Source: Terriglobus tenax (GTDB lineage: Bacteria; Acidobacteriota; Terriglobia; Terriglobales; Acidobacteriaceae). From it: a stretch of 64,000 nucleotides of DNA. The notes beneath the pieces are model-generated. The model did no database searches, had not been told where the DNA came from, and saw nothing but the letters and a program-made list of their open reading frames with translations. The stretch is taken from positions 868,001 through 932,000 of the forward strand of contig NZ_JAGSYA010000003.1 in the NCBI RefSeq assembly GCF_025685395.1, written 5' to 3'. This document shows positions 54,005 to 63,576 of this stretch, piece after piece. A program made the position numbers and the translations under genes. Every line of letters starts with the position of its first letter. Within the stretch, counting starts at the first letter, position 1.

Positions 54005-54079
54005 GGGCGCATAACTCAGCGGTAGAGTGCCACCTTCACACGGTGGAAGTCGTAGGTTCGAATCCTGCTGTGCCCACCA
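54005..54079 (+). tRNA. tRNA-Val(CAC), target of the integrative element
   Basis: 5' arm GGGCGCA pairs with TGTGCCC (one G-U), A discriminator, encoded CCA. Anticodon stem-loop CCACC-TTCACAC-GGTGG gives anticodon CAC, valine. T-arm GTAGGTTCGAATCCTGC. The integrase gene lies 100 bp downstream on the opposite strand, the standard place for tRNA-targeting integrases. Confidence 0.95.
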
Positions 54080-54178: not shown

Positions 54179-55345
54179 TCATACCATCGTCCTTTCCCGC
54201 CCAAACAGAACGTCCACGACCTTGCTCTGCGCCTGTCGCTTCTTCTCCATTCGAGCGTGCGTGTAGATCTCCATGGTGGTGTTGATCTTGGCGTGGCGCA
54301 TAAGCTCCTGAACCACCTTCACGTCGTCCCCATATTCCGACAGCATGGAGCTGTAGGTATGGCGGAAGATGTGCCAACCGATGCGCTTGGTGATGCCTGC
54401 CCGTTTCGCGACCGGCTGCAAGATCTTCTGTAAGGACGAGACCGCCCAGACAGGCATCTTGCCGAAGGCATGATCGCTGGCAAACACCCAGTCTGTGTCG
54501 GACGAGTACATTGTGATCGTCCGCCAGGTCTGAAGCTCCGCCAGAACCAGATCGTCGAGCGGGACGGGCTGCTGTGAGACCTCTGTCTTGCAGCGGCCGA
54601 CGGCTCCATCGACGACCGAACGAAGAACGTTTGCCTTCCCCGTTTGGAAATCGATGTCGCCCCACTTCAGTCCAAGCGTTTCGCTGATGCGGAGGCCTGT
54701 GGTCGCACAGACAACACCCATCGCCCGTTCCCGGTCTGGGAGCTTTCCCAAGAGAGCCAGAAACTCTTCAACCGTGAGCGTCTCAGGGATGCGCGTCCGT
54801 TTGGAACTGACACGCACCATGGCGATCGGATTCTCGTGCTGCCCGAGCCACTCCCACCGTATGCCATGGCGAAAGACCGTGCTCATGACATTGCGGAGCT
54901 TGGCCCTCGAACTAGGAGCCAGGCTGACGCGGTCCAGCCACTCCTCGACATCCACACTGCGGATGTCGCGAAGCCGGAAGGAACCCCATCGTGGAAGGAT
55001 ATGGTTCTTCAAGTTGCCCTCGTAGTTCTTTTTGGTCTTACGAGTCTTGCGTTGGTGATTCTCTTCAGGGAGTTCTTTCGAACGATAGTGGTTGACGAGA
55101 TCCGAGAAGGTTTTGGGGCCGGCCATTCTCTGAAAGCCCTGCTGGTTGATTGTCAGCCTGAGCGATTCAATCGCTGACGATGCAAGGGCCTTCGTCGGAT
55201 ATTGCGTGACCGTTCCGATGACTTGCTTCCGCAACTGGCGCTCACCGTGCTCATCGGTTTCACGCCAGCGGTAGATCCAAACAGAGGCGCTACTTTTGCG
55301 GGGCATAAGTTTCAAACTGCCATTTTGATAACGAGGTCTGCTCAA
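54179..55345 (-). CDS. Tyrosine recombinase integrase
   Basis: 388 residues. Catalytic residues fit the family: Arg219 in TTGLRISETLGL, His325 and Arg328 in HIFRHTYSS, His351 in ELMRHAKINTT, and Tyr361 in TMEIYTHA. The N-terminal half carries the DNA-arm binding and core-binding (SAM-like) region. The TTG at 55345 was chosen because AAGGAGAG lies 7 bp upstream and it directly overlaps the excisionase stop (TTGA). It points toward tRNA-Val. Confidence 0.93.
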   Translation of the reverse strand: MSRPRYQNGSLKLMPRKSSASVWIYRWRETDEHGERQLRKQVIGTVTQYPTKALASSAIESLRLTINQQGFQRMAGPKTFSDLVNHYRSKELPEENHQRKTRKTKKNYEGNLKNHILPRWGSFRLRDIRSVDVEEWLDRVSLAPSSRAKLRNVMSTVFRHGIRWEWLGQHENPIAMVRVSSKRTRIPETLTVEEFLALLGKLPDRERAMGVVCATTGLRISETLGLKWGDIDFQTGKANVLRSVVDGAVGRCKTEVSQQPVPLDDLVLAELQTWRTITMYSSDTDWVFASDHAFGKMPVWAVSSLQKILQPVAKRAGITKRIGWHIFRHTYSSMLSEYGDDVKVVQELMRHAKINTTMEIYTHARMEKKRQAQSKVVDVLFGRERTMV

Positions 55346-55704
55346 GAAACTCTCCTTGAACAAGGCCCCGGCCGCTGGCATAAGTTTACCGCCGCCGACA
55401 TCCAATGATCGAGCTCCGAGATACGGAACTTCCACATCCGTCGCTGCCCGGATCCTACGGGATGACCTGGCAGCCTCCCTCGACGAGCGAGTTCGAGAAG
55501 CGTCTTGCGTCGCATGGACAGAAAGCTAGCGGCGCGCTCTGCATCTACAAACGGCTCCTGCACCAAGACGTCCGGTGAGGCAGAGGTCGGCGGACGGCGA
55601 TCAGGTATCTTGATCCCTCTCTCGTCCGAACGGCTAGCGACATCTGTGTTTGTGGGTACGACATCTCTGGTTCCAATTTGTTCGACGCTTGCGGCTAAGG
55701 CCAT
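55342..55704 (-). CDS. Excisionase-like helix-turn-helix protein
   Basis: 120 residues. The C-terminal half fits a winged HTH_17/MerR-type excisionase: FVDAERAASFLSMRRKTLLE, then RGRLPGHPVGSGQRRMWKF and ISELDHWM. The N-terminal half is polar and probably disordered. Its TGA stop overlaps the integrase TTG start. The ATG at 55704 has GGAG 9 bp upstream. It may help the integrase excise the element. Confidence 0.75.
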   Translation of the reverse strand: MALAASVEQIGTRDVVPTNTDVASRSDERGIKIPDRRPPTSASPDVLVQEPFVDAERAASFLSMRRKTLLELARRGRLPGHPVGSGQRRMWKFRISELDHWMSAAVNLCQRPGPCSRRVS

Positions 55705-55783
55705 AGAGCATCTCCAAAAGGGGAATGCCGGTATCTGGCGATACCGGGAAATGTGCCTAGCCTCTCTCCGCTACCCCCTCGTG

Positions 55784-55832
55784 TCTAATACTTCTTATTT
55801 ATCGGGTGATGCGTTTCATTTATCACCCCGTC
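55784..55832 (-). promoter_or_regulatory. Left LysR-type control module facing the excisionase
   Basis: Holds a LysR-type box GGTGAT-N11-ATCACC at 55805-55827 and, on the minus strand going left, the element TATTAGA ending at 55784, about 80 bp before the excisionase start. The 49 bp match the module at 57041-57089 in inverted orientation, differing mainly in the N11. Confidence 0.65.
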
Positions 55833-56003
55833 TTTGTTGGCAGTTGCGGCGACGGAGTTCCGCAGGAGTAAGTTTGGCCAAAATGGACTTTCCTGTTGAA
55901 ACCATGGGTGACGATTGACACAATCTTCCGCAGGTCGGAGATAGGATTCTCTCCGCTGTTGTGGAGTCAAATCGGAAGCGCTTTATCGACCGGGCAGAGC
56001 GCT

Positions 56004-57014
56004 ATGTATGAATGGGCCGAGCTTCGCCACTTTCGGTATCTGCTTGCCATCCTGGAGAAACAGGGATTCAGGGCGGCAGCGGAACAATTGCGTACCGCCC
56101 AACCGAACCTCAGCATTCAAGCCAAACAGTTTCAGGAAAACGCCTCGGTTCGTCTCTTCCGCAAGATGAAAGGCCAGCGTATCCGGCCGACGGAATCTGG
56201 AATTGCGTTCAAAGTCCTTGCCCGGTATCTCTTAGAAACGCTCGAAGAGGTACTCGATGCACTGATCGCGATCGAACGTGGCGAGATTGGCTCCGTGCGA
56301 TTCGGATGCACTCCCTTGGTCGATCAGGGCTTGTTTCGCACCTTTAGCGATCTACACCAAGAGATTCTTCCCGGCTGCCGGATTCGGCCCACCCATGGTG
56401 ATACTGCCCAACTCGCGGATGAGGTTCTGCTAGGAAAGGTCGACGCCGCCATTGTGACTCTACCTCTTCATCATCCGGATTTGCGCATCGAAGAGGTGCG
56501 GCGAGACCGGCTTGTCGTGTGCCTGCGGCGAGACCATCCGCTGGCCACGAAAGCCTCGTTGCAAACCGCGGATCTGCAGGGCAACCTTGCCGTCCTCTAT
56601 CACCCCCAACGTCACCCGGATGCGCACGCGCGTCTGCTCGAACTGCTCAGAGATGCCGGCGTGCAAATCGAAGAGTATTCCTGCGTCTCGCACCCAACCG
56701 AGATGCAGACGCTCGTCAAAGGCGGCCACGGCTTCGCGTTGATCCGCGAAGGAACCCATCTTGACGATGAATTGATGACACGTCCGATCGCAGGAGTGGA
56801 CTGGACCGTGGATACTGCTTTGATTTACCACAAAGTGCGCCATCCGAAGACCATTCCCATCCTTGTCAAGCGGCTCAAGAAGCAACTCTCCAAGAACGAA
56901 AAAGAGAGGCCACTGAACCAGGTACCTGCTTACTTGCAGGCCTCCATGATTGCTGCTCAACGACCTCCTCAACCTGTGAAAGAAGGTCCGGTTCAGATGA
57001 CGCTCTTGAGCTGA
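56004..57014 (+). CDS. LysR-family transcriptional regulator of the element
   Basis: 336 residues. The HTH is at the N-terminus: LRHFRYLLAILEKQGFRAAA then EQLRTAQPNLSIQAKQFQEN and TESGIAFKVLARYLL. The periplasmic-binding-like effector domain follows (GCTPLVDQGLFRTFSDLHQE). The ATG at 56004 gives the normal LysR N-terminus. It is bracketed by two inverted LysR-box modules (55784-55832 and 57041-57089). Effector unknown. Confidence 0.9.
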   Translation: MYEWAELRHFRYLLAILEKQGFRAAAEQLRTAQPNLSIQAKQFQENASVRLFRKMKGQRIRPTESGIAFKVLARYLLETLEEVLDALIAIERGEIGSVRFGCTPLVDQGLFRTFSDLHQEILPGCRIRPTHGDTAQLADEVLLGKVDAAIVTLPLHHPDLRIEEVRRDRLVVCLRRDHPLATKASLQTADLQGNLAVLYHPQRHPDAHARLLELLRDAGVQIEEYSCVSHPTEMQTLVKGGHGFALIREGTHLDDELMTRPIAGVDWTVDTALIYHKVRHPKTIPILVKRLKKQLSKNEKERPLNQVPAYLQASMIAAQRPPQPVKEGPVQMTLLS

Positions 57015-57040
57015 AAAGACCAAGAGCAGCACGGAGATAG

Positions 57041-57089
57041 GACGAGGTGATAGCTCGCAGCTATCACCCGATAAATAGGAAGTATTAGA
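57041..57089 (+). promoter_or_regulatory. Right LysR-type control module facing the virB operon
   Basis: LysR-type box GGTGAT-N11-ATCACC at 57046-57068 (here the N11 also pairs, AGCT-CGC-AGCT), followed by a TATTAG -10-like element at 57083-57088, 68 bp before the VirB2 start. Inverted copy of the left module. It could also act as a hairpin at the LysR 3' end, though no T run follows. Confidence 0.65.
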
Positions 57090-57156
57090 CGAGAGGCCCG
57101 AGCCGACCCAATCATCATGGCAGTTTCCCGACTGAGACCAGTCGACGGAGGTGCCG

Positions 57157-57537
57157 ATGTCTCGAAGCAATCACGTTCTATCTCGCAGAACAGCCCGCCT
57201 TGCCAAGCGATTGGCGCAGCCTTCACTTACACCGCTACTTCTCCGCGCCGCGCGGACGGTGGGACCGACGCTCGTCGCGCTTACGTTCGCGAGCGTTGCT
57301 CACGCCCAGGGAACGATGGATTTTTCTGGGGCAACCACGCTGATGCAAACGTTCAAAACCTTCGCCATGTATGCCGGGGCTGTTATCTGCCTTGGCGGAC
57401 TCATCTTTGCGGGGATTCGCATGATGAGCGGACGGTTTCAGGACGCGATTCCCGGACTCTTCGGCGCGCTCTTTGGCGCTGGAGTCCTCGGCTGGGGAGC
57501 CGGCTGGATCGGCTCACTGACCGGGCAGTCGATGTAG
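57157..57537 (+). CDS. virB2: VirB2/TrbC-type pilin
   Basis: About 126 residues. A long leader ends in VAHAQG, followed by two hydrophobic helices typical of VirB2 pilins: FKTFAMYAGAVICLGGLIFA and the second around GLFGALFGAGVLGWGAGWIG. VirB2 is the pilus subunit of the type IV secretion channel. ATG at 57157 has GGAGG 5 bp upstream. First gene of the conjugation operon. Confidence 0.8.
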   Translation: MSRSNHVLSRRTARLAKRLAQPSLTPLLLRAARTVGPTLVALTFASVAHAQGTMDFSGATTLMQTFKTFAMYAGAVICLGGLIFAGIRMMSGRFQDAIPGLFGALFGAGVLGWGAGWIGSLTGQSM

Positions 57538-57552
57538 GAGGTGACATCGGCT

Positions 57553-57816
57553 ATGGGACGGCGAGGAGAACCGCAGGCAATTAATCAGGCCCTGAACCGA
57601 CCGAGAGCCAAGCTTGGTCTCGATCTTACGGCATGGATGGCGATCGTATTCGTCTGCATTGCGGTTTTCCTCGTCGGGTTTCGTCTCCTGGCGATGATGG
57701 CCTTCCCAACGCTCGCTGTTGGCGCGTGGCTCATCATCCGCAAACACCCAAAGATGTTTCAACTCTGGGGCTTGAGCCTCAACCAGAAGAGCTACTATGA
57801 CCCGCGCAAATACTGA
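57553..57816 (+). CDS. virB3: VirB3-type protein
   Basis: 87 residues, with N-terminal polar region and two hydrophobic segments (AWMAIVFVCIAVFLVGFRLL, MMAFPTLAVGAWLII) and a C-terminal KMFQLWGLSLNQKSYYDPRKY. VirB3 is a small inner-membrane part of the T4SS and cooperates with VirB4. The ATG at 57553 has AGGAGG about 10 bp upstream. Its 3' end overlaps VirB4 by 20 bp. Confidence 0.75.
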   Translation: MGRRGEPQAINQALNRPRAKLGLDLTAWMAIVFVCIAVFLVGFRLLAMMAFPTLAVGAWLIIRKHPKMFQLWGLSLNQKSYYDPRKY

Positions 57817-60166
57817 GCACGCAAAATTCGTTCCGTGGTTCGCCAAGGCAGGCGCAGCGTGCAGCATCGTGCCGATTGCACGCTTCGTGAGTGACCACAT
57901 CTTTGCGCTGAAGGGTGGCGGCTACGGATCCCTCTTTGCTCTCACGGGCATCGATGAAGAAGGCTTGACCGATCAGGAGCTTGAGTCACAGCTCCGCATG
58001 ATCGAAGGCGCATTGCGTGGCATGCCGGAGGGAGCTTGCCTCCACCAGTACACGCGCGTTCGCGCTGGCTTTGAGATTCCTCGCCAGCAGAGCTACACGA
58101 ATCCCGTGACGCAGGTCTTCGTTGAAGAGCGTCTTCGTTTCCTCGAGCAGACTGCGGGCTTTCGCCGCATTGATCTCCACTGGTGCCTGACGCTGGAACC
58201 GTCGAAGGTCAAGTCCTTCGAGCGGAAATCGGAGGAGAACGCCGCTGGAACTTCACGGATACTGGCCGAGTTGCAAAAGACAGCCACGCTATTGGCCGGA
58301 AATCTCGGCAGCTCCATTGGACTCCAGTTGCGGAGCAAACAGGACACCTTCCGTTTCTTCAGCTACCTCTTCAATCTGGAGGACTGGGCCGAACAGGGGC
58401 AGCTACGCGCCGATACGGGCGTAGACCGCCAGATCGTGCAGGCACCTGTCTCGTGGGAGAGCGATCATCTGCGTGTCGGCAAGCGATACGTCCAGATGTA
58501 CTCCCTGAAGACCACGCCAGAAGCATCGCGGCCGAGTCTTTTCGCAGACTTGCTTATGCTGGATTGCGACAGCATCCTCTGCTCGACGTGGAGGCCCAAG
58601 TCGAGTGCCACCGCGCGTCGTGAGATCGACCAGCAGGAAAAGTTCATCTCGTTCTTTAAAGTAGGGGTGCTCTCGCGCGTGATGGCCGGTAAAGACACGG
58701 CCTCGCTCGACACAGGAGCCGGAGCGAAGGCCGCCAATAACGCAGTCGATGACCTCAGCGATGTCATTCGGGCGCTCGATAAGAAGGCGCAAGGCGAATA
58801 CTCGCTTCGTCTGTTGATCGCGGCACGCAGCGTAGCTGACCTCCACAGCATCGCTCCCGCTGTGCATCGCGTCTTCGTCGAAGCGCGTGCCCAGATCATG
58901 GAGGAGACGCTCGGCAATCTCTCCGCGTTCTACGCCATGTTTCCGGGCAATGGAAAGTTCAATGTATTCCCCATGTGGCTGGGAGAGGATCATCATGCGC
59001 GCTTGTCTTCCATCTTCGCACCGCATCTTGGACATCCCCTATCGGAGGACCTTGACCACGAATACCTGAATGTCTTCGAGACGCGCACAAGGACTCCCTT
59101 TTTCCAAGTTGCCTATGTCGACGGTGTGCGGGTCCAGCTCATCCTCGGGCCCACAGGGTCCGGGAAGTCAGTGATGGGTAACAGCACCATTGCGCACGAG
59201 CAAAAGTATGGCGGGTTCACCTACATCTTCGACATCGGCGGCAGCTATGAGAGTGTCGTCGAGCTGTACGGTGGGCGTGTCGATCGCATCGGCAAAGACG
59301 GCCCACGCGTGAATCCGTTCATTCTGGAGCCGACACAGAGCAACATCCAGTTCCTCTATAGCTTCATCAAGCTGTTGCTGACCAACGGCGGCGCGGAGCT
59401 TGAGCCAGAAGATGACGACGTCATTCATAAGGCCGTGCAGGACATGTACCTACTCGATCCGGGCAATCGTCGTCTGTCGAATCTCTATCTGCCGAAGAAA
59501 CTTGATCGTTACCTGTCGAAATGGGTTGGTCGCGGCGTCTATAGCGCGATCTTCGACAACGTAGAAGACAGTCTCTCCCTCTCTCGACTGCAATGCTTTG
59601 ACTTCCAGGGTGTGAACAACGCGCAGTATGCGGATCTGATCGAGCCACTGATGGTGTGGCTGCTGCGGCGCATCAACGACGTGCTGTTCAATCCCGCTAA
59701 TTTAGGTGTTCCCAAGCACATCCTCATCGAAGAGATCTTCTCTTCGATGAAGAACCGTCAGCTCTTGGAAGCCGCGCTGGCTTCGATCAAGACAGTGCGT
59801 AAGAACCTTGGCGGCGTCACGATGATCGGTCAGTCCGCTGAGGATCTCGGTGCCAATGCCGACTCCATCGTCAACTCCTGCACATCGTTCCTCTTCCTGC
59901 GCGATGCGACATTCAACCGGAAGCGTTACGCCGAGCTCTTCAAGATGAACGAACAGCAGCTCGCTCTCTTCGAGAGCTTGCAGGATCGCGAAGCGCTCTA
60001 CATGCGCCGCGATGGGCTCACCAAGGTCATTCGCCTAAATCTCGACAGCCGCAGTTACGCTGCCTTCTCCACCAAGCCGAAGGATCGTGTGCGCAGATCG
60101 AAGTTGATTGCCAGGTACGGACTCGCCGAGGGCATCGCCCGCTTTGCCCAAGGCGAGACGGAGTAG
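57797..60166 (+). CDS. virB4: VirB4/TrbE-type conjugation ATPase
   Basis: 789 residues. VirB4 ATPases drive pilus assembly and substrate transfer. Walker A is LGPTGSGKSVMG (about 450-461). The Walker B region is HILIEEIFSSM, with Glu where Asp is usual. C-terminal motifs: TMIGQSAEDLG, SCTSFLFLRD and LQDREALYMRRDG. The N-terminal 200 residues form the VirB4 N-domain. It overlaps VirB3 by 20 bp. Confidence 0.92.
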   Translation: MTRANTEHAKFVPWFAKAGAACSIVPIARFVSDHIFALKGGGYGSLFALTGIDEEGLTDQELESQLRMIEGALRGMPEGACLHQYTRVRAGFEIPRQQSYTNPVTQVFVEERLRFLEQTAGFRRIDLHWCLTLEPSKVKSFERKSEENAAGTSRILAELQKTATLLAGNLGSSIGLQLRSKQDTFRFFSYLFNLEDWAEQGQLRADTGVDRQIVQAPVSWESDHLRVGKRYVQMYSLKTTPEASRPSLFADLLMLDCDSILCSTWRPKSSATARREIDQQEKFISFFKVGVLSRVMAGKDTASLDTGAGAKAANNAVDDLSDVIRALDKKAQGEYSLRLLIAARSVADLHSIAPAVHRVFVEARAQIMEETLGNLSAFYAMFPGNGKFNVFPMWLGEDHHARLSSIFAPHLGHPLSEDLDHEYLNVFETRTRTPFFQVAYVDGVRVQLILGPTGSGKSVMGNSTIAHEQKYGGFTYIFDIGGSYESVVELYGGRVDRIGKDGPRVNPFILEPTQSNIQFLYSFIKLLLTNGGAELEPEDDDVIHKAVQDMYLLDPGNRRLSNLYLPKKLDRYLSKWVGRGVYSAIFDNVEDSLSLSRLQCFDFQGVNNAQYADLIEPLMVWLLRRINDVLFNPANLGVPKHILIEEIFSSMKNRQLLEAALASIKTVRKNLGGVTMIGQSAEDLGANADSIVNSCTSFLFLRDATFNRKRYAELFKMNEQQLALFESLQDREALYMRRDGLTKVIRLNLDSRSYAAFSTKPKDRVRRSKLIARYGLAEGIARFAQGETE

Positions 60167-60186
60167 CCATTTCAGAAAGGACAAAC

Positions 60187-61020
60187 ATGAAACCGCCCAT
60201 CCCCATCGCCGTTGCTCTCCATCTTGTGCTGGCTTCCGCATCGTTGCACGCGGCTACGCCGGTGCATGCTCTCCAGCCAAGTGCCCCGCGCACGGTCACC
60301 GTGTCGGAGTCGCAGACCCCGCCCGTAGTGCGCGCAGGCTTATTGCAATCGACGCTGATTGTCCTGCCTGCCGAGGAAAAGGTTGCGAACGTCTTCGCTG
60401 GGGACACGGTCGATTGGGTCTTCGACGGTGGTCATGTGGCTTCGCGCTTTATCAGCGTGAAGCCGAAGACGGCGAACGGATCGACCGACATCCATATCGT
60501 CTCCGACCACGGCAACGAGTACACCCTGCAATTGCGTGAAATCTCGGATGATGCCGATGCGCACTATGACTCGAAGGTGCTGATCGAGCCCGGCGACAAG
60601 GTGGCGAAGAACCGCTTGGCACAGTTGCCCGTCTTCGTGCCTGCGGCTGACCTCGACAAAGCCAGGCAGGAAGCTACGGCGGCGCAGGCGGCCCAGGCCG
60701 CCACGCTAAAAGCCGAGCAAACGAGGGAGGAGACCTATCGCAGCCAGTATCCCGGCTCGCTTCACTTCGATTTCGTCTGGGATGAGAAGAAAGGCAAGGA
60801 GCTTGGTCTTCAGCAGATATGGCGCGATGACAAGTTCACGTATCTGCGCGGGCACTTCCAGGAAACACCCGCCCTCTACGAAGTGAAGGATAAGAAACCC
60901 TCGCTCATCAACTTCGACTTCGCGAACGGTCTGTACATCGTGCCGAAGGAAGTGGATGCGGGTTATCTCGCCATCGGCAAACAGCGCGTGGACTTTCATC
61001 GCAGCGCAGAGGGGAGGTAG
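60187..61020 (+). CDS. virB9: VirB9/TrbG-type protein
   Basis: 277 residues with a signal peptide (VALHLVLASASLHAATP). VirB9 forms the outer part of the T4SS core complex with VirB7 and VirB10. A conserved beta-rich fold is seen: VFAGDTVDWVFDGGHVASRF, then HIVSDHGNEYTLQLREI, and FDFVWDEKKGKELGLQQIWRDDKFTYLRG split across strands. It ends 2 bp before the VirB10 start. Confidence 0.85.
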   Translation: MKPPIPIAVALHLVLASASLHAATPVHALQPSAPRTVTVSESQTPPVVRAGLLQSTLIVLPAEEKVANVFAGDTVDWVFDGGHVASRFISVKPKTANGSTDIHIVSDHGNEYTLQLREISDDADAHYDSKVLIEPGDKVAKNRLAQLPVFVPAADLDKARQEATAAQAAQAATLKAEQTREETYRSQYPGSLHFDFVWDEKKGKELGLQQIWRDDKFTYLRGHFQETPALYEVKDKKPSLINFDFANGLYIVPKEVDAGYLAIGKQRVDFHRSAEGR

Positions 61021-61022
61021 AT

Positions 61023-62291
61023 ATGTCGGAACTGAATGACAACACCCCCGCAACTGTCCCCGAACAGCCAGAGTCGAAGCCGCCACTGCGGAAGAGTATG
61101 CCCGTCGTGATCGCTCTCGTGGTGATCGTGGCCCTCGTCGGTCTCGCCAACCTCTCCAGCCTTCTGACCGGCAATAAGAAGAACGCCCCGGCCAGCGCCC
61201 TGAGCATGAGCCCGACGACGCCCAATGCCCAACAGGTGTCGAGCTTCCAGACCCAACAGCAGATGCAGGCACGGCATGATGCCGAAGAGCTGCAACGGCA
61301 ACAGTCGCTCGCTGCCGCGATGCAGCAGCTCCAACAGGAGCAGAGCGTTCCCGGTCCGGAGAGCGCAACCGCTGCGCCGATGACTCCCGCCCAGCGGGAT
61401 GCCATCTATGGCGGAAGCAGCAACGCTCCGCAACATACCTCCAATGTCTCGGAAGCCCAGGCGGAAGCGAAGCAGAAACGGCTCGCGGTCGAGAAACAGC
61501 ACCAGGACGCCCTCAACAGCGATACCGTTGCGATCGATTTCTCTCACGCGGGATCGGGGGCGCCCGCCGCGGTCCTCAGTGCCAAAGCGGAGAGCACGGA
61601 TAAAGCATCTGCGGAAGATATTCCCGGCAAGCTGCCGGCAAAGGATGCGTCCGCCTCAGCAGCCAAATCAAATCCGATGTCTGCTTACAACTTCGACCAG
61701 TACCAGGGCCAGCTCTATCGCATCTTCGAGGGCACGGTGCTGGAGGGCGTCGTCACCAACCATATCGACGGCGGATTGTCGGGGCCGATCCTCGTCATGC
61801 TAACGACGGATTATTACTCTCACGACCACCAGCAATTGCTCATGCCGCAAGGCACTCGCCTGATCGGCAACGTGCAGAGTGTCGGCAACGCCCAGCAGAG
61901 GAAGATGTTTGTCACCTTCCATCGCGCTGTCTGCCCCGATGGATTTTCGCTGGACTTCGACAAGTATCTCGGTCTCGACCAGATGGGGACCACGGGACTG
62001 GCCACCAAGGTAGATCACGGGTACCTGATGGCGTTCGGAGCAGCCGCCGCCATCGGTGGCCTCGGCGGCATGGCCCAGATCGGTAACAACGGCTCGGTGC
62101 TGTCTCCCTCGACGCAGATTCGGAATGGCATCTCGGAGCAGTCCGCAGCGGAAGGGGAACAGGTCCTCAATCACTTCCTAAACCGCCTGCCGGTCATCAC
62201 GCTTAAAGAGGGATCACGCGCCCGCGTCTACATTGGCCGTGACATCCTCATACCGTCTTACGCAGAGCATCGCGTCGATCCCACCCTGTAA
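61023..62291 (+). CDS. virB10: VirB10/TrbI-type protein
   Basis: 422 residues. A cytoplasmic Pro-rich N-terminus, one membrane helix (MPVVIALVVIVALVGLANL), a Gln-rich helical linker (QQMQARHDAEELQRQQSLAA), and the C-terminal beta-barrel domain (VTNHIDGGLSGPILVMLTTD, MPQGTRLIGNVQSVG and LDFDKYLGLDQMGTTGLATK). VirB10 spans both membranes and gates the channel. Confidence 0.9.
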   Translation: MSELNDNTPATVPEQPESKPPLRKSMPVVIALVVIVALVGLANLSSLLTGNKKNAPASALSMSPTTPNAQQVSSFQTQQQMQARHDAEELQRQQSLAAAMQQLQQEQSVPGPESATAAPMTPAQRDAIYGGSSNAPQHTSNVSEAQAEAKQKRLAVEKQHQDALNSDTVAIDFSHAGSGAPAAVLSAKAESTDKASAEDIPGKLPAKDASASAAKSNPMSAYNFDQYQGQLYRIFEGTVLEGVVTNHIDGGLSGPILVMLTTDYYSHDHQQLLMPQGTRLIGNVQSVGNAQQRKMFVTFHRAVCPDGFSLDFDKYLGLDQMGTTGLATKVDHGYLMAFGAAAAIGGLGGMAQIGNNGSVLSPSTQIRNGISEQSAAEGEQVLNHFLNRLPVITLKEGSRARVYIGRDILIPSYAEHRVDPTL

Positions 62292-62305
62292 AGAAAGGAG
62301 GAACC

Positions 62306-62512
62306 ATGTATCCCCGTATCCCCCGTTCGTGCCGTCCCTTGATTCTCGTCCTGCCGCTTGTGCTCATCGTCGCTTCCATCGGACTGTCAGGAGGCTTTTG
62401 GACACTCGCGCGAGCGGGCGTTGCATCGCTTGAATCTGTCGGCCACCTCATCACTAGGTTCCACGAATTTCCACTGGACCCCCTTGATCTGATGAACCCA
62501 CGTTGCATCTGA
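62306..62512 (+). CDS. Small membrane protein between virB10 and virB5
   Basis: 68 residues. A basic N-terminus (MYPRIPRSCR) and one hydrophobic helix (PLILVLPLVLIVASIGLSGG), then a Leu- and Pro-rich tail. A strong AAAGGAGG ribosome site lies 6-8 bp upstream. It occupies the place of a small lipoprotein or entry-exclusion gene, but it has no lipobox. No family recognised. Confidence 0.65.
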   Translation: MYPRIPRSCRPLILVLPLVLIVASIGLSGGFWTLARAGVASLESVGHLITRFHEFPLDPLDLMNPRCI

Positions 62513-62532
62513 GCCCCCACATCGGAGAGCCT

Positions 62533-63318
62533 ATGAGTCTCGACCTCAAAAAACGTCGTAAGTGGATTCTGGGAGGCGGCTTGTTGCTGCTGACCGCCAC
62601 TCCCAGCTTCGCGCTCTTTGGCATCGGAGACATCGTCTTCGATCCAACGAGCTACGCCAGCCTCGTCTCGCAGCTCACGACGCTGCAGACGCAGTACACG
62701 ATGCTCAAGAACAATATCGAGCATTTCTCCATCAAGCAGCAGTGGCAAACCACATTGACTGCTCTCAAGAATGCGAACGTCAAAAACATGTTCGGTGAAA
62801 CCAACGGCATGACGACGGCTCTCAACAGCAACTCGCCGTCTGCTTCGTCCACGGGATGGACAGCTGCGACCGTCCCGGTTAGCTCTGATCTGCCGACCTA
62901 CATCGGTAGTCAGACGCCTGGAAGCCCGCAGCTCTCCCAACTCGCGATGATCGAGATGTCGGACTCCGTCTCACCGGATTGCATCACGGCAGTCGGTCAA
63001 TACCGCGCCGCCCGTTTACAAAACACGGCCGCGACCACGAGCCTCACCGCCAACCAGCTCGACGGCACCAGCAGCACGAACAGCGAAGTCCAACAACTCA
63101 ACATGCTCAACGCAGCAGAAGCGCAGAAGAGGTCGGAGGCGCAGAATCAAGGCGCTTTGCAGGCCTGCGTCGCGTCGCAGATGGCCCTCGCGAACATGCA
63201 GCAACGCAACGCTGCCGCCACCGACCTCAACACGGCCGTCTTCGTCCAGTCCCAGCACGCCACGCACGATATGAGCGCCGCGAGCGAAGGAAACACCTGG
63301 CAGACCTACTTGCCGTAA
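62533..63318 (+). CDS. VirB5/TrbJ-type protein
   Basis: About 261 residues, signal peptide (WILGGGLLLLTATPSFALF), long helical chain with coiled heptad-like stretches (SYASLVSQLTTLQTQYTMLK) and a Gln/Asn-rich C-terminal part. The family is a minor pilus-associated component. The ATG at 62533 has GGAGAG upstream. Its last residues EGNTWQTYLP recur at the end of the next small protein. Confidence 0.75.
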   Translation: MSLDLKKRRKWILGGGLLLLTATPSFALFGIGDIVFDPTSYASLVSQLTTLQTQYTMLKNNIEHFSIKQQWQTTLTALKNANVKNMFGETNGMTTALNSNSPSASSTGWTAATVPVSSDLPTYIGSQTPGSPQLSQLAMIEMSDSVSPDCITAVGQYRAARLQNTAATTSLTANQLDGTSSTNSEVQQLNMLNAAEAQKRSEAQNQGALQACVASQMALANMQQRNAAATDLNTAVFVQSQHATHDMSAASEGNTWQTYLP

Positions 63319-63327
63319 CGGAGAGCC

Positions 63328-63576
63328 ATGCTGAAACTGCTCAATAGCAAACTCTTACTTGCAATCGTTGCGGTGCTGGCTGCACTCGCCAGCGCCGCGA
63401 TCTGTCAACGCCATGAGGCTGCCAAAGCCGCAGCCATCCTCGAACAACAGCAACGCGAAGCCGAGCGCCGCAGGCAGGAAGATGAGCTCTTCCGTAAGAA
63501 GGTCGAAGAAGACAAGAAGCGACACGACTCCGCTGCTGGCAACGAAGGCAAAACCTGGAAGAGCTATATCCCCTAG
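63328..63576 (+). CDS. Small membrane-anchored protein, TrbK-like position
   Basis: 82 residues. An N-terminal hydrophobic helix (LLLAIVAVLAALASAAICQ), then a charged coiled segment (EQQQREAERRRQEDELFRKK) and a tail EGKTWKSYIP that matches the VirB5-like C-terminus. The Cys in AICQ is too far into the helix for a confident lipobox. TrbK-like proteins are entry-exclusion proteins in some systems; this is positional inference. Confidence 0.7.
   Translation: MLKLLNSKLLLAIVAVLAALASAAICQRHEAAKAAAILEQQQREAERRRQEDELFRKKVEEDKKRHDSAAGNEGKTWKSYIP

Follow-up and report, generated by a model that had tools for sequence, protein, structure and literature searches.

One LysR-type regulator, encoded between two operons of a Terriglobus tenax integrated element (ICE), probably binds two matched sites that bracket its gene and would thereby activate excision and conjugation together, a reading drawn from sequence comparison. 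The initial annotation had placed a single LysR in the middle of this arrangement, controlling both processes via T-N11-A boxes; conservation of the module pair lends this proposal strong comparative support, and it is further supported by modules that face RDF-like or pilin genes without a full-length lysR alongside and by box letters that change together, partly with the LysR recognition helix. Direct binding, the transcription start sites and a tetrameric state of the regulator are what we infer.

An ICE at a tRNA-Val gene

The window, i.e., the whole 64-kb stretch of DNA that was analysed, holds the left end of this ICE, for which excision and transfer are predicted. Gene order runs from tRNA-Val through a tyrosine integrase, an RDF-like HTH_17 gene and lysR to virB2-B3-B4 and virB9- and virB10-like genes (Table 1). 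Beyond the window lie virB6-, virB8- and virB11-like genes, a virD4-like coupling protein and a TrwC relaxase (called from a scan of its first 188 residues), and one element combines integrase, mating apparatus, coupling protein and relaxase, as an ICE does. A genome pattern search found exact copies of the 25-nt tRNA-Val 3′ end at C3:922055, C3:1007693 and C3:1009524, the first two being direct repeats that flank the insertion site, another ICE hallmark. No repeat of the tRNA region of at least 14 nt occurs up to C3:1000000, the copies lying further out, and no tRNA gene is present at the two distal copies. Recurrence of the tRNA 3′ end without a tRNA gene thus marks out an ICE of ~85.6 kb; its right end is slightly open because of the further copy at C3:1009524 (~87.5 kb if this second copy is the end). 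By classification, the protein is a LysR-type regulator and the element an ICE, not a Tn4371 member.

Islands with a different integrase (L136, L140 and L148) adjoin apparent homologues, judged by eye, of the host neighbours of this ICE, the shared neighbour being an anti-sigma-like gene. Given these host-gene homologues beside the islands, the region around tRNA-Val is possibly a hot spot for insertion.

Table 1 Features of the window around the two modules (positions in the window)
Feature	Position	Strand	Evidence and details
tRNA-Val (CAC)	54005–54079	+	ARAGORN
Left repeat of the element (tRNA-Val 3′ end)	54055–54079		
Tyrosine integrase gene	54179–55435	−	Pfam Phage_integrase, E 3.8e-27
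RDF/excisionase-like gene, first under the predicted left promoter	55342–55704	−	Pfam HTH_17, E 1.2e-8; PHROG 66 excisionase, E 3.2e-6; start ATG 55704, preceded by GGAG
RDF leader RNA hairpin, CCGGTATC-GCCA-GATACCGG	55728–55747	−	
Predicted RDF promoter	55752–55787	−	Column conservation, 49 left modules; −35 TAGACA (55787–55782), 17-bp spacer, −10 GAGGCT (55764–55759), predicted start A 55752
Left LysR-box module	55784–55832	−	Dyad GGTGAT-N11-ATCACC 55805–55827, centre 55816 (−64)
Conserved block GTAAGTTTGGCCAAAA, upstream of lysR promoter	55868–55883	+	Alignment, 22 chosen loci
Putative lysR promoter, TTGAAA-N17-CACAAT	55896–55924	+	Promoter scan
lysR, LysR-type regulator, 336 aa	56004–57014	+	Pfam HTH_1 (N-terminal, E 3.7e-11) and LysR_substrate (C-terminal, E 8.1e-28); start from relatives
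Right LysR-box module, inverted	57041–57089	+	Dyad GGTGAT-N11-ATCACC 57046–57068, centre 57057 (−64)
Predicted virB2 promoter	57086–57121	+	Column conservation, 42 right modules; −35 TAGACG (57086–57091), 17-bp spacer, weak −10 CAATCA (57109–57114), predicted start 57121; alternative −10 AATCAT at spacer 18
virB2 leader hairpin, CGACTG-AGAC-CAGTCG, directly 5′ of the Shine-Dalgarno sequence	57129–57144	+	
virB2 (pilin)	57157–57537	+	Pfam TrbC/VIRB2 at E 1.6e-5, which falls short of the family cut-off; tblastn in relatives; start ATG 57157, GGAGGT at 57147–57152
Rest of virB operon: virB3, virB4, virB9-like (CagX), virB10-like (TrbI), further frames	57541–63576	+	Pfam

The lysR start is most likely ATG 56004, correcting a longer frame. 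An ATG at this position is present in the compared relatives of at least 74% identity, and the longer TTG frame (55896) starts inside the putative −35 element of lysR itself; counter to this assignment, four loci match the long frame up to ~30 residues further upstream. The scan for the putative lysR promoter found one where 0.5 were expected, and this one is kept in near relatives. The strongly conserved block GTAAGTTTGGCCAAAA may point to a second regulator that sets lysR expression. The true start of the integrase may sit further in because its listed frame overlaps the RDF gene.

Two modules with promoter-like anatomy

Both 49-bp modules described in the initial annotation are present, the right-hand one inverted, and the similarities and distances given there could be reproduced; left and right copies are identical at 26 of the outer 27 bp, agree at 10 of the last 11 bp and at 39 of all 49, and lie 80 bp (left) from the RDF start codon and 68 bp (right) from that of virB2. 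The 26/27 agreement is the best inverted 27-mer match within 54501–58500, against 19–22 in 12 mononucleotide shuffles. GGTGAT-N11-ATCACC without mismatch has two copies in the window and two in the 4.36-Mb genome. With up to two mismatches, the bare dyad occurs in the window four times versus 2.14 expected, i.e., not above chance, and the outer element, with up to three mismatches, was found twice and never in 100 shuffles. As the bare dyad is not special, the weight rests on the outer element and on conservation. No third module exists in the 4.36-Mb genome at up to one mismatch of the full pattern.

Read in the direction of the gene it faces, the module comprises the dyad GAT-N11-ATC, a 4-bp gap and the sequence GATAnnTA-N4-GTATTRGAC, followed by A (mostly on the left) or G (mostly on the right). 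The resulting TRGACA or TRGACG can act as a −35 element, with a −10 element 17 bp on, whose second A is conserved in 45/49 left and 39/42 right modules and whose last T is kept in 44/49 left ones; right-hand −10 boxes are ill-defined. Relative to the predicted starts, the dyad is centred at −64 on both sides, in line with the T-N11-A near −65 of LysR-type sites; OxyR sites have been predicted at −66, −44 and −35 of oxyS (PMC5002191). With gaps of 0–39 bp allowed between the proximal and distal parts, 91 of 98 scored modules had 4 bp, five had 15 bp, one 14 bp and one, from the fragment L088, 5 bp. The 14–15 bp class lies one helical turn beyond 4 bp, which would be expected should both parts need to share one helix face. 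With this layout of dyad, third half-site and then −35, the module looks like a site of activation by LysR.

Of the 30 distinct right leaders, 28 contain a hairpin of at least five pairs; among 49 left leaders, only 22 do. In some loci (e.g., L068 and L044), the stem letters of the virB2-leader hairpin are altered on both sides.

Conservation of the module pair

The lysR search yielded 16 loci in named genomes and, for the order, hits in 92 of the 397 genomes searched (E 1e-40); flanks were fetched for near homologues plus a sample of distant ones. Removal of identical genes left 60 near loci (~47% identity or more), 54 of which were scored (full-length lysR match with 400 bp or more of flank), the others being fragments (L016, L076, L087, L088 and L091) or having a short flank (L084). 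The pair noticed in the window recurs in these related elements: both modules are present in 43 of the 54, the left one only in four (L013, L014, L073 and L078), the right one only in three (L033, L041 and L042), and neither, by weight matrix, in four (L034, L077, L080 and L083). On the question whether the same LysR also exists without modules, 50/54 loci keep at least one module and 4/54 lack both by this measure. Among the latter four, lysR of L034 is interrupted and L077, L080 and L083 encode diverged LysRs (48–53%); L077 and L080 have a GTTAAC-like right-hand version that scores below the threshold. The matrix (threshold 25) was built from 79 modules of the near loci, so that these counts describe rather than test; the top score in 2320 mononucleotide flank shuffles was 5.5.

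Of 38 distant loci (30–42% identity), 37 had enough flank, and three left flanks and no right flank passed the matrix. The exact block GTCYAATAC (GTATTRGAC on the other strand) was found on both sides in 11 of the 37, on the left only in 14, on the right only in four and on neither side in eight, and 20 distant loci contained 24 occurrences in 130 kb versus 1.6 in shuffles. A search with the module pattern matched 41 of 394 genomes of the order, with no match for the reversed control. At E 1e-30, the plasmid collection contained no LysR relative; in a sample of the phylum, lysR matches at E 1e-42 came from 21 of 396 genomes, all within the family of the window. Two genomes, G083 and G136, hold three and four near lysR elements, respectively (L004–L006, L008, L022, L065 and L066), and two of the G136 lysR copies carry a TGA in frame.

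Genes faced by the modules

A virB2 match (tblastn) was present in the fetched stretch of 39 of the 43 two-module loci, and wherever virB2 was found among relatives it lay downstream of lysR in the same orientation, likewise in the window. On the other side, we called a protein for each of the 49 left modules except L044, which offered too little sequence; three apparently unreliable ones (L021, L030 and L011) were dropped, leaving 45. Twenty-three diverse proteins chosen from these share a mean column identity of 14%, and at E 0.01 19 of them match the PHROG excisionase family, 17 HTH_17 and two AlpA. L013 and L014 have a different left-hand protein of 253 aa, and L013 has virB3 and virB4 matches to its left on the opposite strand.

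We fetched 20 stretches picked mainly around modules not adjoining lysR, in which 18 modules have no full-length lysR alongside (L133, L149 and L151 adjoin a lysR fragment). Sixteen of the 18 face an RDF-like gene by tblastn, including the near-identical pairs L134/L135 and L146/L147 and, in L137, an RDF-like gene without a Pfam match; the other two (L141 and L143) face a TrbC/VirB2 pilin gene. Because modules still face RDF-like or pilin genes when no full-length lysR is alongside, they are, as far as gene neighbourhoods tell, parts of the RDF and pilin promoters and no cassette ends.

The alternative raised in the initial annotation makes the modules the termini of a mobile lysR cassette; this reading, like that of an invertible segment, is highly improbable and finds no support in these data. 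An inverted repeat around one gene with a tyrosine integrase adjoining would suit it, and in 4 of 41 two-sided elements (L021, L064, L046 and L075) at least 15 of the 17 dyad positions agree between the two sides. However, a mobile cassette or invertible segment calls for identical cores, whereas the inner letters differ between left and right and keep side-specific forms, in most near relatives as well as in the window, unlike recombinase cores; the modules without full-length lysR and the constant orientation of virB2 speak against it as well.

In L141 and L143, the pilin is of another type and its module lies 4.5 and 3.9 kb from lysR, respectively; their operon represents a second VirB type, a divergent one, with virB4 28–30% identical.

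Half-sites and the LysR recognition helix

Mean left–right half-site identity was 0.756 within elements versus 0.679 for permuted pairs (p ≤ 5e-5), in a permutation test on 29 non-redundant of 40 two-sided elements from which L090 had been removed beforehand and to which shared descent contributes. Across loci, the half-sites of the two modules shift jointly and to some extent follow residue 38 of the LysR recognition helix. This residue aligns with Arg34 of BenM, which contacts DNA and gives specificity (PMC6628147). GATG accounts for 15/30 half-sites with Arg38, versus 3/186 with Val38 and 1/18 with Ile38, and Arg38 arises in L046 (its sister L068 has Val38 and no GATG) and in a separate clade, L081/L082/L085. 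L040 combines Glu38 with GATC in 4/6 half-sites, and L077 Lys38 with GTTAAC (three half-sites); in L012 and L037, residue 32 is Gly, GATA is absent and the half-sites are changed though residue 38 stays Ile. Against the link, L090 has Arg38 yet no GATG (0/6), and Ala or Ser at position 38 mostly occurs with GATA. The association was noticed post hoc and comprises two or three changes, L081 and L082 being nearly identical.

GTCYAATAC is constant while half-sites and helix change. As it does not track the helix, its probable reader is polymerase or some other factor. The same constancy, which extends to many LysRs of 30–38% identity, would fit a bystander role of lysR, with the modules read by some other protein, be it the RDF, the integrase or a factor of the host. 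We consider this quite unlikely, as RDF sequences vary greatly while the module stays, the dyad letters partly track the LysR helix, and the dyad fits the T-N11-A rule, in relatives even as the ATAC-N7-GTAT of BenM/CatM. Moreover, a scan of seven LysR paralogue loci in the same genome returned six, none with a module or block, five of them matched in part so that their flank positions are approximate.

A proposed single activator for two promoters

We therefore favour the two modules as matched operator-promoters of a single LysR-type activator. On each module, a LysR tetramer would place one dimer on the distal GAT-N11-ATC dyad at −64 and the second on the proximal GATA half-site plus the site overlapping −35, and the bound protein would recruit RNA polymerase to a promoter whose −10 box is weak. 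The left promoter would serve the RDF gene and hence excision, the right one the virB operon and hence the mating apparatus; with polymerase recruited to both, the two products would appear together. Given the position of lysR between the promoters and the related half-site letters at both sites, excision and transfer would be turned on jointly once LysR senses an inducer.

With its dyad at −64, a site that abuts −35 and a weak −10, the geometry speaks for activation rather than repression, although repression, or an inducer-switched change from repression to activation, is compatible with the same anatomy. That LysR mainly represses RDF and virB2 until a signal releases them is unlikely in our judgement: the proximal part of the module does reach −35, and BenM and CatM are described as repressing without and activating with effector (PMC6628147), but the dyad does not cover the −10 element or the start, the −10 boxes are weak, as expected for activator-dependent promoters, and no second dyad over the start caught the eye in the module alignments.

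Relation to known systems and significance

A conserved box of ~50 bp with T-N11-A before several operons of one LysR regulator is familiar from the nod box of NodD, whose targets are symbiosis genes, with no RDF or conjugation targets. To our knowledge, no twin boxes surround the genes of SetCD or AcaCD. The titles and abstract openings listed in searches of open-licence PMC papers included no report on switching of conjugative elements in Acidobacteria or on a LysR-controlled ICE there.

The nearest known system in function is TraR of Tn4371 ICEs, a likeness drawn from its published description. As described, TraR is likewise LysR-type and carried by an ICE, and its overexpression in ICEKKS102Tn4677 raised xis 80-fold and traG 3-fold, and excision and transfer rose as well; the xis −35 there directly follows a T-N11-A inverted repeat, the box occurring at xis and one hypothetical gene and a half-site at traG, and in-vitro binding by TraR was very weak (PMC11448139). 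Unlike in that description, the window has lysR between two operons and a full two-part module at both, and the box letters differ. Likewise, SetCD of SXT/R391 ICEs and AcaCD of IncA/C plasmids are reported as single activators of transfer genes and xis, SetCD binding near −35, and mobilizable islands as having their own xis promoter answer the helper's activator; unlike the LysR of the window, SetCD is a two-subunit complex and AcaCD an activator of the FlhDC family (PMC4344509, PMC4605294). TciR of ICEclc is also LysR-type and activates the start of ICE transfer, but its reported target is just one intermediate promoter, that of bisR, and the rest is switched by later regulators (PMC7423338). 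The closest solved structures are those of BenM and CatM, whose Site 1 is a T-N11-A within ATAC-N7-GTAT (PMC6628147), a motif that recurs in many left modules among the near relatives; these proteins control aromatic catabolism and the similarity is remote, so that the inducer cannot be inferred from them.

Modules facing an RDF-like gene with no same-family lysR adjoining were observed in L132, L134–L137, L140, L142 and L148 (genomes G131, G038, G049, G155, G105 and G029), and in L132 and L142 a TrwC relaxase lies on the other side of the module. G049, G155 and G029 yielded no LysR relative above 32% identity, G131 has a fragment only, and G038 and G105 carry a full lysR element elsewhere. 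These loci are either satellites or remnants. The idea that such an orphan module resembles the box of an ICE in the same genome failed, the resident modules ranking 5th and 12th of 84 in G105 and 18th and 62nd in G038.

More tentatively, the twin-module LysR could be the master switch, with its own recognition code, of a large Acidobacteriaceae ICE lineage, and the lysR-less islands its satellites in trans. RDF-module islands without lysR (two with their own TrwC) would then respond to the LysR that a resident ICE supplies, just as AcaCD triggers SGI1, and helix changes and boxes shifting together could keep several ICEs per cell separate. The natural gaps of 4 versus ~15 bp offer a ready-made helical phasing experiment. 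If the proposed switch is true, the natural changes in box and helix make the LysR DNA code directly testable, and one LysR with two boxes would couple excision to the building of the mating apparatus.
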